Below are positions 25,879 to 30,089 of a stretch of 64,000 bases of DNA, piece after piece. The notes beneath the pieces are model-generated. The model saw only the letters and a list, made by a program, of their open reading frames with translations. It was not told the DNA's origin and searched no databases. The translations under genes were made by a program, and so were the position numbers. This DNA is from Candidatus Saccharimonadales bacterium (GTDB lineage: Bacteria > Patescibacteriota > Saccharimonadia > Saccharimonadales > Saccharimonadaceae). Location of the stretch: contig DASSDB010000002.1 in the NCBI GenBank assembly GCA_035697325.1, forward strand, positions 465,232 through 529,231. Direction: 5' to 3'. Positions within the stretch are counted from its first letter, which is position 1; the number at the start of each line of letters is the position of its first letter.

Positions 25879-25885
25879 AGTTTGG

Positions 25886-25891
25886 TATAAT
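25886..25891 (+). promoter_or_regulatory. -10 box of leuS
   Basis: TATAAT, then 8 bases to ATG 25900; no Shine-Dalgarno. leuS may thus be transcribed separately from the Mur ligase gene. Confidence 0.6.
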
Positions 25892-25899
25892 AGGCGCAT

Positions 25900-28866
25900 A
25901 TGAAGCGCTATAACCCAACCGAAATCGAGCAAAAATGGCAGGACCAATGGGAAAAGGATGGTACGTACACTGTCGATCTGTCTGATCAGTCGCGCCCTAA
26001 ATATTTTGGTTTTAGCATGCTACCGGGTATTACTGGTGCCGGAATCCACATCGGTCATGGTCGAACATATCAGTTTAGCGATATTAAAGTACGCGCTAAG
26101 CGGCAGCAAGGATTCAACGCCTATCATCCTATCGGCTGGGATTCGTTTGGTCTTCCTGTAGAAAATTACGCGATAAAAGTTGGCAAAACTCCCCGCGAAG
26201 CACACGATGACGCTAAGGTTAATTTCAAGCGGCAGCTTAAACGGCTTGGGTATAGCTACGATTGGTCAAAGGAGATCAGTACAGCTGATCCAGAATATTA
26301 CAAGTGGACACAATGGATTTTTAATCAGCTCTATAAGCATGATTTGGCCTATCAAAAAGAAAGCCCGCAGTGGTGGTGTGAAACCGACCAGACGGTCCTT
26401 GCGAATGAGCAAGTTGAAGGCGGTAAGTGTTGGCGCTGTGGCAACCCAGTAGTAAAGAAAAACCTCAAGCAATGGTTCTTTAAAATTACCGACTACGCGG
26501 ATGAAATCTTGGAAGCAACCGACGCGCTCGATTGGACCGAATCGGTAAAAGTGATGCAAAAAAACTGGATCGGCAAATCCGAAGGGTCTGAAATTGACTT
26601 TATGCTTCAGTTTGATAATGAAAAGCGCAATGAATGGCGGGATGAAGATGGCAATCCGGCGCATATCACAGTGTTTACCACCCGCCCTGATACGATTTTT
26701 GGTGCGACCTGCCTCGTGCTCGCCCCTGAGCACCCGTGGGTGACAGCGGCTCTCGAGCAAACCGACACGCTTCCCGGGATGGAACATGTCCGTGCGTACG
26801 TAAAGCAAGCGGCAGCCAAGTCTGAAATTGAACGCATGAACGATACGCGTGAGAAAACAGGTGTCTTTACGGGTGTGCATGCGATTAATCCGGCTACGGG
26901 CAAAAAGATTCCTGTATGGGTTGCAGATTACGTATTGGCGGGTTATGGCACCGGTGCGATTATGGCTGTGCCCGCACATGATGAGCGTGATTTTGCTTTT
27001 GCGGACAAATTCAAGATCCCTATCGTTGACGTTGTTGCTCAAGATTTTGGTGAGGAACTTCCCGAACCAAAAGAAGTTGAAGGCGTCGTGGTAATCGGGT
27101 ACGACCCAAAAACTAAGCAATTTATGGGGCTAAAAAATCGTCGGAATGATCGAGGCTGGCTGGTTGCGGGTGGTCGAGAAGACGGCGAAACATTTGAACA
27201 GGCGGCATACCGCGAACTTCGTGAAGAGGCGGGGTTTGTTGAAGTTGAAGCTATGATTCCTCTTGGAGCCCCTGTTTATTCGTACTATTACAATAGCAAT
27301 AAACAAAGCAATCGCCGCTCAAAAGGATACAATTTCTTGGCGATAGTTGATGCGAATAACCAAGGAGAAACGGCTCAAGAAGCGCATGAAGACTTTGAAG
27401 TGTACTGGGATACCATCGACGGCCTGAGGCGTCAGACTAATCCTGATGGCGGTGCCGGTCACTGGATGGAGGGAATTGACCGCGCTGCTCAAGCTGCTAA
27501 AGCATACGATGCGAATGAGGCCTACCAGGCGCGGCTTTACCACGGTGAGGGTATTTTGGTTAATTCGGGTGAATTTGATGGCATGCGAACCGAAGAGGCT
27601 CGTGAGCATATTACCGCATGGCTTGAGCAGCAGGGTATTGGCCGGCTCAAAACAACGTATAAAATGCGCGATTGGCTTATTAGCCGTCAGCGTTACTGGG
27701 GTGCGCCAATTCCTATTATCCACTGCGAAAAAGACGGTGCTGTTGCCGTGCCGGATGACCAATTGCCGGTTATTTTACCCGAAGTTGAAGATTACAGACC
27801 TAAAGGCGGCACGACCTCTGTGCTTGCCGGTGTGGAAGCTTGGGTAAATACCACGTGTCCTACATGCGGTGGTCCGGCAAAACGAGAGACAGATACGATG
27901 GACGGCTATGCATGTAGTAGCTGGTATCCGCTTCGCTATCTTGATCCGTTCAATGACAAGCAAGCTTGGAACCCTGAGGTTGAAAGCTACTGGGGTCCAG
28001 TTGATTTTTATAATGGCGCCGACCACGCGGTGGCTCACTTGCTGTACGCTCGCTTTTGGACACGCTTCTTTTATAAGCTCGGTCTCGTCTCTCATCCAGA
28101 GCCATTCAAGCGGATGATGTATAACGCGTATATTATGGCGCCCGATGGGCTTAAAATGAGTAAATCGAAGGGTAACGTGATTGATCCACTAGAGATCATG
28201 AACAGTGGCTACGGTGCCGATTCGCTTCGTATTTACGAAATGTTCATTGCACCATACGACATGGAGGCGCCGTGGGATACGCGTGGTGTTCCTGGAACAT
28301 ACAGGTTTTTAAACCGGGTATGGAATCTTGTGCAAGAGTATATTGAGGCAGGTGATGTCATCGTCGATGAAAAACATACGGAAGCTATCCTTAAAACCGC
28401 TCATCATACCGTTAAAAAAGTAACTGAAGATATTGAAGGTGAAAAGTTTAATACGGCCGTCTCATCCATGATGGAAGCAGTAAATACTTACTACAAATTG
28501 AAAGAAGAAAGCCCATTGGGCGTATCGGTAGCATGGACCTTCGCTATTGAAAGTCTCCTTAAGGTACTTGCGCCATTTGCGCCGCACATTACCGAAGAGC
28601 TATGGCATCAGCTTGGAAACAATACGACAATCCACATCGACACATGGCCAAGATGGAACAACTCCTACCTCACCACTAGTGAAATGACGATCGTCGTTCA
28701 GGTTAATGGCAAGGTGCGGGCAAAGCTTACGCTTCCTATAGAAAGTTCGGAAGGTGAAGTAAAGCAAAAAGCACTTGATGAAGAAAACGTGCAAAAATTT
28801 ACTGATGGAAAAGAACCCAAGAAAGTGATCTATATTCCTGGCAAACTCGTCAGTATTGTTTTATAG
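25900..28866 (+). CDS. leuS: leucyl-tRNA synthetase with embedded Nudix domain
   Basis: The 988-residue enzyme charges tRNA-Leu. HIGH is at residues 50-53 (IHIGHG), the editing CP1 domain begins with FTTRPDTIFGATCLVLAPEH, the zinc-type CWRCG and CPTCG pairs are present, KMSKS is at about 752-756 and the anticodon-binding domain follows. Between KFKIPIVDVV and GILVNSGEFDGM, about residues 385-540, sits a complete Nudix domain: strands EVEGVVVIGYD, then a canonical box GREDGETFEQAAYREL and REEAGF (about 423-445) with all expected glutamates. This insertion in the editing region is uncommon; it explains the length (usual about 800-880). Confidence 0.95.
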   Translation: MKRYNPTEIEQKWQDQWEKDGTYTVDLSDQSRPKYFGFSMLPGITGAGIHIGHGRTYQFSDIKVRAKRQQGFNAYHPIGWDSFGLPVENYAIKVGKTPREAHDDAKVNFKRQLKRLGYSYDWSKEISTADPEYYKWTQWIFNQLYKHDLAYQKESPQWWCETDQTVLANEQVEGGKCWRCGNPVVKKNLKQWFFKITDYADEILEATDALDWTESVKVMQKNWIGKSEGSEIDFMLQFDNEKRNEWRDEDGNPAHITVFTTRPDTIFGATCLVLAPEHPWVTAALEQTDTLPGMEHVRAYVKQAAAKSEIERMNDTREKTGVFTGVHAINPATGKKIPVWVADYVLAGYGTGAIMAVPAHDERDFAFADKFKIPIVDVVAQDFGEELPEPKEVEGVVVIGYDPKTKQFMGLKNRRNDRGWLVAGGREDGETFEQAAYRELREEAGFVEVEAMIPLGAPVYSYYYNSNKQSNRRSKGYNFLAIVDANNQGETAQEAHEDFEVYWDTIDGLRRQTNPDGGAGHWMEGIDRAAQAAKAYDANEAYQARLYHGEGILVNSGEFDGMRTEEAREHITAWLEQQGIGRLKTTYKMRDWLISRQRYWGAPIPIIHCEKDGAVAVPDDQLPVILPEVEDYRPKGGTTSVLAGVEAWVNTTCPTCGGPAKRETDTMDGYACSSWYPLRYLDPFNDKQAWNPEVESYWGPVDFYNGADHAVAHLLYARFWTRFFYKLGLVSHPEPFKRMMYNAYIMAPDGLKMSKSKGNVIDPLEIMNSGYGADSLRIYEMFIAPYDMEAPWDTRGVPGTYRFLNRVWNLVQEYIEAGDVIVDEKHTEAILKTAHHTVKKVTEDIEGEKFNTAVSSMMEAVNTYYKLKEESPLGVSVAWTFAIESLLKVLAPFAPHITEELWHQLGNNTTIHIDTWPRWNNSYLTTSEMTIVVQVNGKVRAKLTLPIESSEGEVKQKALDEENVQKFTDGKEPKKVIYIPGKLVSIVL

Positions 28867-28876
28867 TTCGATTTAC

Positions 28877-28905
28877 TTGAGAAATAGGAGTTATTTAGGT
28901 ATAAT
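28877..28905 (+). promoter_or_regulatory. rpmF operon promoter
   Basis: TTGAGA (28877-28882), 17-base spacer, TATAAT (28900-28905), followed by a 36-base leader with AAAGGAGAT before rpmF. Confidence 0.75.
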
Positions 28906-29152: not shown

Positions 29153-29614
29153 ATGGCATCAAACCGCCACCTCGGACGTATCGTTGCATTACAGAGCTTA
29201 TATGAGTACGAATTTCGTACCCAGTCTGAAGATAGTACCGTTTCGATAGACGAAATCTTAGAGCGTAATCTTGCTCGTTATGAAGATATGATCGACGATA
29301 AAACGTTCGTAGAAGAGCTTGTAAAGGGAATAATTGCCGATCAGGCAGATCTTGATGACAAGATTCGCCCTATCGCGCCTGACTGGCCTATCGAACAGAT
29401 CGCTCGGGTCGATCGAGCGGTGCTTCGCATGGGTCTTTACGAACTTCTTAAGCTCGGCGATGTCGTTCCTCCAAAAGTTGCGATCAACGAAGCCGTGGAG
29501 CTTGCCAAAGCGTTTGGTTCCGATAACTCCAGCAAATTTGTGAACGGTGTGCTAGGAACAGCCTACCGTACACTTATTGGAGGGGAGCCCGAAAGTGCAA
29601 AATCCAAAGTTTGA
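29153..29614 (+). CDS. nusB: transcription antitermination factor NusB
   Basis: A 153-residue all-helical protein with the NusB layout: RHLGRIVALQSLYEYEF at the start, FVEELVKGI, PDWPIEQIARVDRAVLRMGLYELL and VPPKVAINEAVELAKAFGSDNSSKFVNGVLG at the end. It binds BoxA RNA with S10 in rRNA transcription complexes. Its stop overlaps the following Nudix start region, indicating translational coupling. Confidence 0.93.
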   Translation: MASNRHLGRIVALQSLYEYEFRTQSEDSTVSIDEILERNLARYEDMIDDKTFVEELVKGIIADQADLDDKIRPIAPDWPIEQIARVDRAVLRMGLYELLKLGDVVPPKVAINEAVELAKAFGSDNSSKFVNGVLGTAYRTLIGGEPESAKSKV

Positions 29615-30089
29615 ACGTTTTAAAAAGTACTTCAACCGCCACAAGCCGTCGATTCAGGAAATTGTTCGTGAGCCGACTGCTGGAGGTGTGGTCTTTCGCC
29701 GTAATAAGGCCGGTGAAGTAGAGATCCTCTTAATCCAAGATGCTAAAGACCGCTGGACGATTCCAAAAGGTCATATTGAAGAAGGCGAAACGGCTCAACA
29801 GACAGCCCGTCGCGAAATTGGCGAAGAGGCTGGCCTTAAGGACGTAGAAGTCCTCGGGTGGTTGGGTAAAATCCATTTTCGTTACCGCCGGGTCGATCGC
29901 CTTGTACTGATGACTACTCAAATCTATCTTGTGCGCGCCAAAGGCGACACGGATGCAATTAAGAAAGAAGAGTGGATGAACGGTATCAAATGGTTTAAAT
30001 TCCATGACGCCCTAGAACAAATCGAATATGAAGATATCGGTAAATTAATGCTACTCGCAATGAAAAAAATTCGACAGGAGAATTTGTAA
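29595..30089 (+). CDS. Nudix hydrolase of the nusB-rnc operon
   Basis: A 164-residue protein with basic N-terminal helix (FERFKKYFNRH), TAGGVVFRRNKAGEVEILLI and a full box IPKGHIEEGETAQQTARREIG then EEAGL (about residues 49-71); the PKGH start is typical of diadenosine-polyphosphate or 5'-triphosphate-type Nudix enzymes. The GTG at 29595 is preferred, with GGAGGGGAG seven bases upstream and inside the end of nusB; an ATG at 29577 is less favourable. The stop runs directly into the rnc ATG. Position between nusB and rnc suggests RNA-linked function, which is inference. Confidence 0.8.
   Translation: MQNPKFERFKKYFNRHKPSIQEIVREPTAGGVVFRRNKAGEVEILLIQDAKDRWTIPKGHIEEGETAQQTARREIGEEAGLKDVEVLGWLGKIHFRYRRVDRLVLMTTQIYLVRAKGDTDAIKKEEWMNGIKWFKFHDALEQIEYEDIGKLMLLAMKKIRQENL

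Follow-up and report, generated by a model that had tools for sequence, protein, structure and literature searches.

The leucyl-tRNA synthetase (LeuRS) encoded in the window, the 64,000-nucleotide stretch of DNA that was analysed, contains a Nudix domain at the end of its CP1 editing region, and on the balance of the evidence this domain appears to be a catalytically active Nudix hydrolase that LeuRS carries as an exchangeable enzyme cassette. The parts of this reading differ in strength. To judge from its residues, the module is very probably an active enzyme, and it is likely to be an accessory cassette that takes no part in the leucylation chemistry. The module has been exchanged independently of its host LeuRS through many gains, losses and replacements, and it occupies a single slot, fixed in position and tolerant of inserts, where the CP1 editing domain ends; it is from this exchange pattern that we infer the role of the synthetase as a carrier. 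LeuRS and Nudix proteins are each known families, and the surprising part is the behaviour of an exchangeable cassette.

The leuS gene occupies positions 25900 to 28866 of the forward strand, including the stop codon. Its 988-aa frame is a bacterial LeuRS, matching the NCBIfam model leuS_bact (TIGR00396) with 933 bits against a cut-off of 548, and it is the single LeuRS of this very small bacterium of Saccharibacteria type, whose genome completeness is rated 99.87%. All the signatures of the family are found on the same strand: HIGH (aa 50-53, 26047-26058), with H50 and G52 invariant in the LeuRS alignment; the threonine motif of the CP1 editing site, TTRPDT (aa 260-265, 26677-26694), in which T260, T261, R262, D264 and T265 are invariant among 21 LeuRS and which belongs to a CP1 editing domain matched by Pfam PF13603 with 200 bits; the second editing-site motif, AHDERD (aa 359-364, 26974-26991), with A359, H360, D361, R363 and D364 invariant; the SRQRYWG motif of the catalytic core (aa 595-601, 27682-27702), with R596, Q597, R598, W600 and G601 invariant; and KMSKS (aa 752-756, 28153-28167), with K752 and K755 invariant. 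The core, the HIGH and KMSKS signatures and the CP1 motifs are shared with the bacterial-type enzymes of Thermus thermophilus (1h3n), Escherichia coli (4aq7) and Neisseria gonorrhoeae (7nu9), and identity to known LeuRS structures is 43-47% over the structural alignment. The predicted structure of the whole protein (pLDDT 87, pTM 0.77) is a LeuRS plus an extra domain, and 49 of its best 50 structural matches are LeuRS, at Z 41-49. The residues for the synthetase, for the editing site and for Nudix catalysis thus form a complete set in one chain. Just upstream of the leuS ATG there is a TATAAT box (25880-25900, forward strand: ggtataataggcgcatATG), and a similar tataat precedes the next gene, near 28903; this placement may give rise to very short or leaderless mRNAs.

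The inserted module spans approximately aa 381-544 (27040-27531, forward strand), as delimited by Pfam, by the alignment with 1h3n, by insert-free relatives and by the fold model, and it lies after the CP1 editing core and before the chain re-enters the catalytic domain, where the first-pass annotation had placed a complete Nudix domain. The T. thermophilus enzyme 1h3n aligns to aa 1-392 and 545-987 of the window protein and, since its residues 374 and 375 are contiguous across the gap, about 150 residues are truly inserted; the same extra residues, with the Nudix domain at the CP1 end, set the protein apart from 4aq7 and 7nu9. In the whole protein, Pfam NUDIX (PF00293) matches aa 395-509 with 43.5 bits (E 4e-11; cut-off about 21), and the insert scanned alone gives 47.7 bits against the cut-off of 21. 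The Nudix box GX5EX7REUXEEXGU is found with exact spacing at aa 424-446 (27169-27237, forward strand), where its residues are G424, E430, R438, E439, E442, E443, G445 and F446, the first seven of which are invariant among the 21 aligned LeuRS; the earlier claim of a complete domain with intact catalytic residues is confirmed. After the following helix, the motif K-x-x-N-R (KQSNR, aa 468-472, 27301-27315, forward strand; K468, N471 and R472) characterises the subfamily, its first position being lysine in 75 of 82 domains and arginine in another 3, and it probably constitutes a site for an anionic ligand. Furthermore, a tryptophan of the module, W503 (27406-27408, forward strand), is invariant in two alignments and kept in 80 of the 82 domains.

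With regard to family membership, a profile built from 35 inserts (A1) indicates that most inserts belong to one Nudix subfamily. The window module is a divergent member, approximately 20% identical to other modules, and scores 79 bits when it is itself left out of the profile, a small margin over the best generic freestanding Nudix protein at 66 bits. The inserts of L014, L095 and L011 and the site-A domain of L071 obtain near-generic scores and may represent separate captures. Among the named Nudix equivalogs of NCBIfam none was reached, with 23-34 bits against cut-offs of 116-259; for RppH and the other named equivalogs, the best scores, against a cut-off of 118, are 23 bits for the window insert and 34 bits for a relative. 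The A2 profile found nothing in the PDB at 1e-7, and the window protein had no match among the PADLOC defence models, where two relatives weakly match the generic Nudix model PDC-S07.

The catalytic residues of the module are held by purifying selection. Across the 82 Nudix domains found at the slot, with a median pairwise identity of approximately 28%, the box glutamates are kept in 82, 80 and 80 domains and the box arginine in 77, with lysine in 3 more. Pairwise dN/dS of the Nudix part lies between 0.013 and 0.29 where it can be estimated, in the same range as the synthetase core. The CP1 editing residues are intact in 21 of 21 aligned rows, and since both sets of residues are kept and the Nudix part is under selection, editing and Nudix activities would both be expected in one chain.

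The Nudix domain of LeuRS is a widespread yet minority state. In 286 genomes drawn evenly from the phylum of the window, it was found in at least 39 Patescibacteria (13.6%) by search with A1. The impression of the first-pass annotation that the architecture is not standard for LeuRS is correct. The 41 matches in frames longer than 600 aa comprise 39 LeuRS, one ValRS (G159, L074; 834-883 bits to ValRS models) and one IleRS (G280, L068; 760 bits to ileS). Above 90 bits, the remaining carriers, G279 and G066, have freestanding proteins only, that of G279 consisting of 187 aa encoded approximately 2.4 kb from an insert-free LeuRS on a common contig; generic freestanding Nudix proteins score below this group. 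A scan of named genomes adds Berkelbacteria, Taylorbacteria, Kaiserbacteria, Magasanikbacteria, Saccharibacteria and other patescibacterial lineages. Outside the Patescibacteria, the architecture is found in gut or uncultured MAGs of Bacilli/Mycoplasmatota type, Erysipelotrichaceae and Clostridia and in one Pacearchaeota MAG; approximately 15 Bacilli-type loci agree on it, whereas cases seen in a single MAG could be binning errors. A sequencing or assembly artefact was excluded because dozens of genomes, independent of one another, show this architecture with no stop codon inside the frame. In the Gracilibacteria locus L149 (JAQUZJ010000004.1), the match to a Nudix-LeuRS breaks up into a series of short frames when translated with table 11, which is what glycine-coding TGA codons in that group would produce.

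The comparison of carriers with insert-free relatives reveals a single point of insertion. The gap between the two halves of the core measures 152-166 aa in carriers versus 10-12 aa in insert-free LeuRS, and in L010 and L102, two members of one genus with and without the Nudix domain, AHDERD.AFAEKFHLP before the slot and YHGEG..NSG.FDGM after it are found in both. In a tree of 155 LeuRS cores, with the insert columns left out, presence of the domain changes 32 times, 25 of these changes being forced by starred branches, although single branches should not be over-trusted because this is a quick tree; its 82 carriers were enriched by choice, 39 of 286 being the less biased share. In a more carefully built tree, with 23 rows around the family of the window, 8 changes are needed, and a single clade of Nudix carriers in that family is rejected (AU p 1e-5).

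Replacement of one module by another is also visible. Core and Nudix identities are only weakly correlated (Spearman 0.17), and in pairs with a replaced module the flanks are 65-90% identical while the Nudix domains are 22-32% identical. Thus, L212 and L145 share 90% identity before the domain, 28% inside it and 73-88% after it, and the window protein and L009 share 80%, 25% and 65-75%, respectively; the pattern is similar in L014/L120, L016/L023, L009/L011 and L010/L094. The opposite case is found in L136/L152, whose Nudix domains are 75% identical and whose whole cores are 55% identical.

As to where the window module came from, composition gives no sign of a recent foreign acquisition, since the GC3 of the insert (0.42) falls within that of equal windows of the same ORF (0.39-0.56); over 84 loci, the GC3 of the cassette follows that of the host (r 0.90). 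A phage or plasmid origin was likewise rejected, with no phage match at E 1e-5 and only Vibrio and Photobacterium matches of approximately 30% identity in plasmid records. Approximately 0.7 kb 3' of leuS, flanked by NusB-like and RNase III-like frames, lies a freestanding Nudix gene (29577-30089, forward strand; 170 aa; PF00293, 70.7 bits), which was discarded as a source because it has no special similarity to the insert (40 bits with the profile). Proteins of the form ...VREPTAGG.VFRR...DRWTIPKGHIEEGETA, like the product of this gene, are found near LeuRS in L097, L122, L135, L238 and L247.

The Nudix domain is one of several enzyme domains found in such slots. According to Pfam, an RBBP9-like Ser_hydrolase domain (PF06821) is present in the patescibacterial LeuRS L070, L075, L076, L080, L081, L087, L308 and L311, with a match slightly under the cut-off in L084, and in L081 it sits at exactly the Nudix slot. 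HAD domains are found in the LeuRS L069 and L078, Ham1 in L069 and L071, ASCH in L086 and a nucleotidyltransferase-like domain in L069. The IleRS L068 combines Ser_hydrolase, Nudix and histidine phosphatase domains, and the LeuRS L111 has five inserts, namely three Nudix, one alpha/beta-hydrolase-like and one HAD domain. Class Ia synthetases with such inserts (L068, L069, L071, L078, L086, L111, L308 and L311) reach 1795 aa. Besides the slot described above, a second one is located at the CP1 entry, after approximately aa 235-250, and a third after SRQRYWG. Of the 11 Ser_hydrolase matches in frames longer than 900 aa, 10 are in LeuRS and one is in a glycosyltransferase fusion; the latter, L314 (G172:C16; 992 aa), has its RBBP9-like domain between two GT4 glycosyltransferase parts and is the only large-frame host other than LeuRS. 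These observations could be taken further, albeit with considerable doubt: in Patescibacteria and in some gut Firmicutes with small genomes, class Ia synthetases, and LeuRS most of all, might offer their CP1 region as a docking slot for exchangeable cassettes (Nudix, Ser_hydrolase, HAD, Ham1, histidine phosphatase, ASCH and nucleotidyltransferase). These cassettes would pass from genome to genome uncoupled from the host gene and would together make up a repertoire for detoxification or immunity, directed against adenylate-type compounds that target these synthetases.

In the mechanism proposed for the module, it would run a reaction of its own, presumably the cleavage of a small anionic nucleotide, while LeuRS would mainly supply expression, location or co-localisation. 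Mg2+ would be held by the Nudix box for the hydrolysis of a pyrophosphate-type bond, and this hydrolysis might protect the cell or the synthetase. As a candidate class of substrate we tentatively suggest, at somewhat under even odds, adenylylated compounds made or bound at LeuRS, either diadenosine polyphosphates, which would be a by-product of the synthetase to be removed, or toxic leucyl-adenylate-like compounds. Synthetases are the classical source of Ap4A, and Ap4A-like substrates fit because synthetases make such nucleotides and the fold neighbours of the insert include ApnA hydrolases; toxic adenylate analogues fit the choice of hosts and the turnover of the module, which resembles that of resistance or defence genes. 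Hydrolysis of leucyl-adenylate analogues or of an alarmone, two of the roles first proposed, is among the possible ones.

The predicted structure bears on a related explanation, according to which the module serves signalling or by-product control, removing an alarmone that the synthetase makes, such as Ap4A, and tying its level to LeuRS activity. Modelled alone, the insert is predicted to adopt a Nudix fold (pLDDT 89), with matches to Nudix structures at Z of approximately 16; the nearest include RppH (Z 16.4), the Enterococcus faecalis protein 2azw (16.3) and the Aquifex Ap4A hydrolase (16.0), as well as RppH bound to Ap4A, the T. thermophilus Ap6A hydrolase and CT771. With these RppH- and Ap4A-hydrolase-like proteins (RppH 2kdv and 7sp3, Aquifex 3i7u and 2azw) the module shares the fold and the box; it differs from them in being only approximately 16-22% identical, in having its own K-x-x-N-R motif and in residing inside a synthetase. 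These neighbours and the origin of Ap4A speak for such control. Nevertheless, hydrolases of ADP-ribose and 8-oxo-dGTP reach a similar Z, so that the fold cannot fix the substrate; moreover, most relatives lack the module, even inside one genus, and a swap for unrelated enzymes misfits one fixed signalling role, which makes this explanation unlikely.

The position of the module, directly adjoining the CP1 editing core, and its hosts LeuRS, IleRS and ValRS, the trio of class Ia synthetases that possess an editing domain of this type, invite the view that it adds a pre-transfer editing step by hydrolysing misactivated norvalyl- or isoleucyl-AMP shed by LeuRS. We know of no Nudix enzyme acting on aminoacyl-AMP, and none of the 21 carriers in the alignment has lost any CP1 editing residue. 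HAD and Ser_hydrolase domains, which are not Nudix enzymes, occupy the same or adjacent slots. Modules that have left the synthetase also tell against extra proofreading. In the gut Bacilli and Clostridia MAGs L134, L138, L140 and L141, which also encode an insert-free LeuRS, the Nudix domain is found in a separate frame of 156-301 aa; that of L141 ends at the contig end, and the three complete frames, of 281-301 aa, all have a shortened CP1 stump N-terminal of the Nudix domain. The stumps of L134 and L138 still match PF13603 (51 and 33 bits, respectively, cut-off 25) and TIGR00396. In the freestanding frames TTRPDT is gone and AHDERD has decayed, while the Nudix box is intact. In four closely related copies (L208-L211), dN/dS is 0.02-0.10 for the Nudix part and 0.16-0.39 for the stump. 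Since the stump motifs have decayed in these freestanding genes, the module does not seem to need an intact editing domain; and since the separate gene persists with an intact box beside an insert-free LeuRS, its reaction appears to be worth keeping in trans. An editing role, proposed in the first-pass annotation, is thus unsupported so far, and we regard it as distinctly improbable.

The slot could also be a neutral or selfish hot spot that tolerates inserts, with domains hopping by recombination and bringing no benefit linked to LeuRS. Gain, loss and replacement repeated at one point, the several domain types and the five inserts of L111 would fit this idea. Purifying selection and near-invariant catalytic residues would be unexpected of passengers, and the hosts are non-random, since the matches to the Nudix profile in frames longer than 600 aa fall in class Ia synthetases only; a neutral hot spot is therefore very unlikely. 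Least probable of all is a purely structural insert that shapes CP1 or tRNA contacts with a box kept by descent, as 7 of the 82 modules with a changed residue at four box positions (3 of them merely Arg to Lys) might suggest, given that the Glu and Arg residues are kept in 77-82 of 82 domains only approximately 28% identical, that dN/dS is low (0.01-0.3), that the LeuRS of sister species are insert-free and that the module survives as a separate gene. It had been reasoned beforehand that widespread occurrence with degenerate boxes would indicate a structural role only; the domain is widespread, and its boxes are intact and under strong purifying selection.

Further known systems come close to this arrangement. 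Synthetases have grown by inserted modules, the LeuRS editing domain among them (PMC10810186); these modules are treated there as family-level features, with mention of neither Nudix nor Patescibacteria, whereas the Nudix domain of LeuRS can be present or absent within a genus and is swapped. An IleRS with an N-acetyltransferase (NCBIfam NF040702, ileS_w_GNAT) is likewise a class Ia synthetase with a small-molecule enzyme domain, differing from the window LeuRS in the added enzyme and in the synthetase; no paper on it was found in the literature search. A search on Patescibacteria and LeuRS found nothing relevant, and no description of the Nudix and LeuRS combination was found in the literature searched, whose partial coverage makes this absence weak evidence. 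Nudix-LeuRS sequences surely exist, uncurated, in public databases.

An essential and universal enzyme of translation would be expected to be architecturally conservative, and yet here an apparently active domain is gained, lost and substituted at a constant position in the editing domain, between species of one genus, and can exit as a gene of its own. The LeuRS slot offers a natural and testable case of domain exchange within an essential gene, and its tolerated insertion points provide a map for protein engineering. Identification of the substrate would uncover either a new side reaction of the synthetase that needs cleaning up or a class of compounds that target LeuRS where these symbionts live. 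The essential leuS gene seems to be a carrier for exchangeable enzymes.
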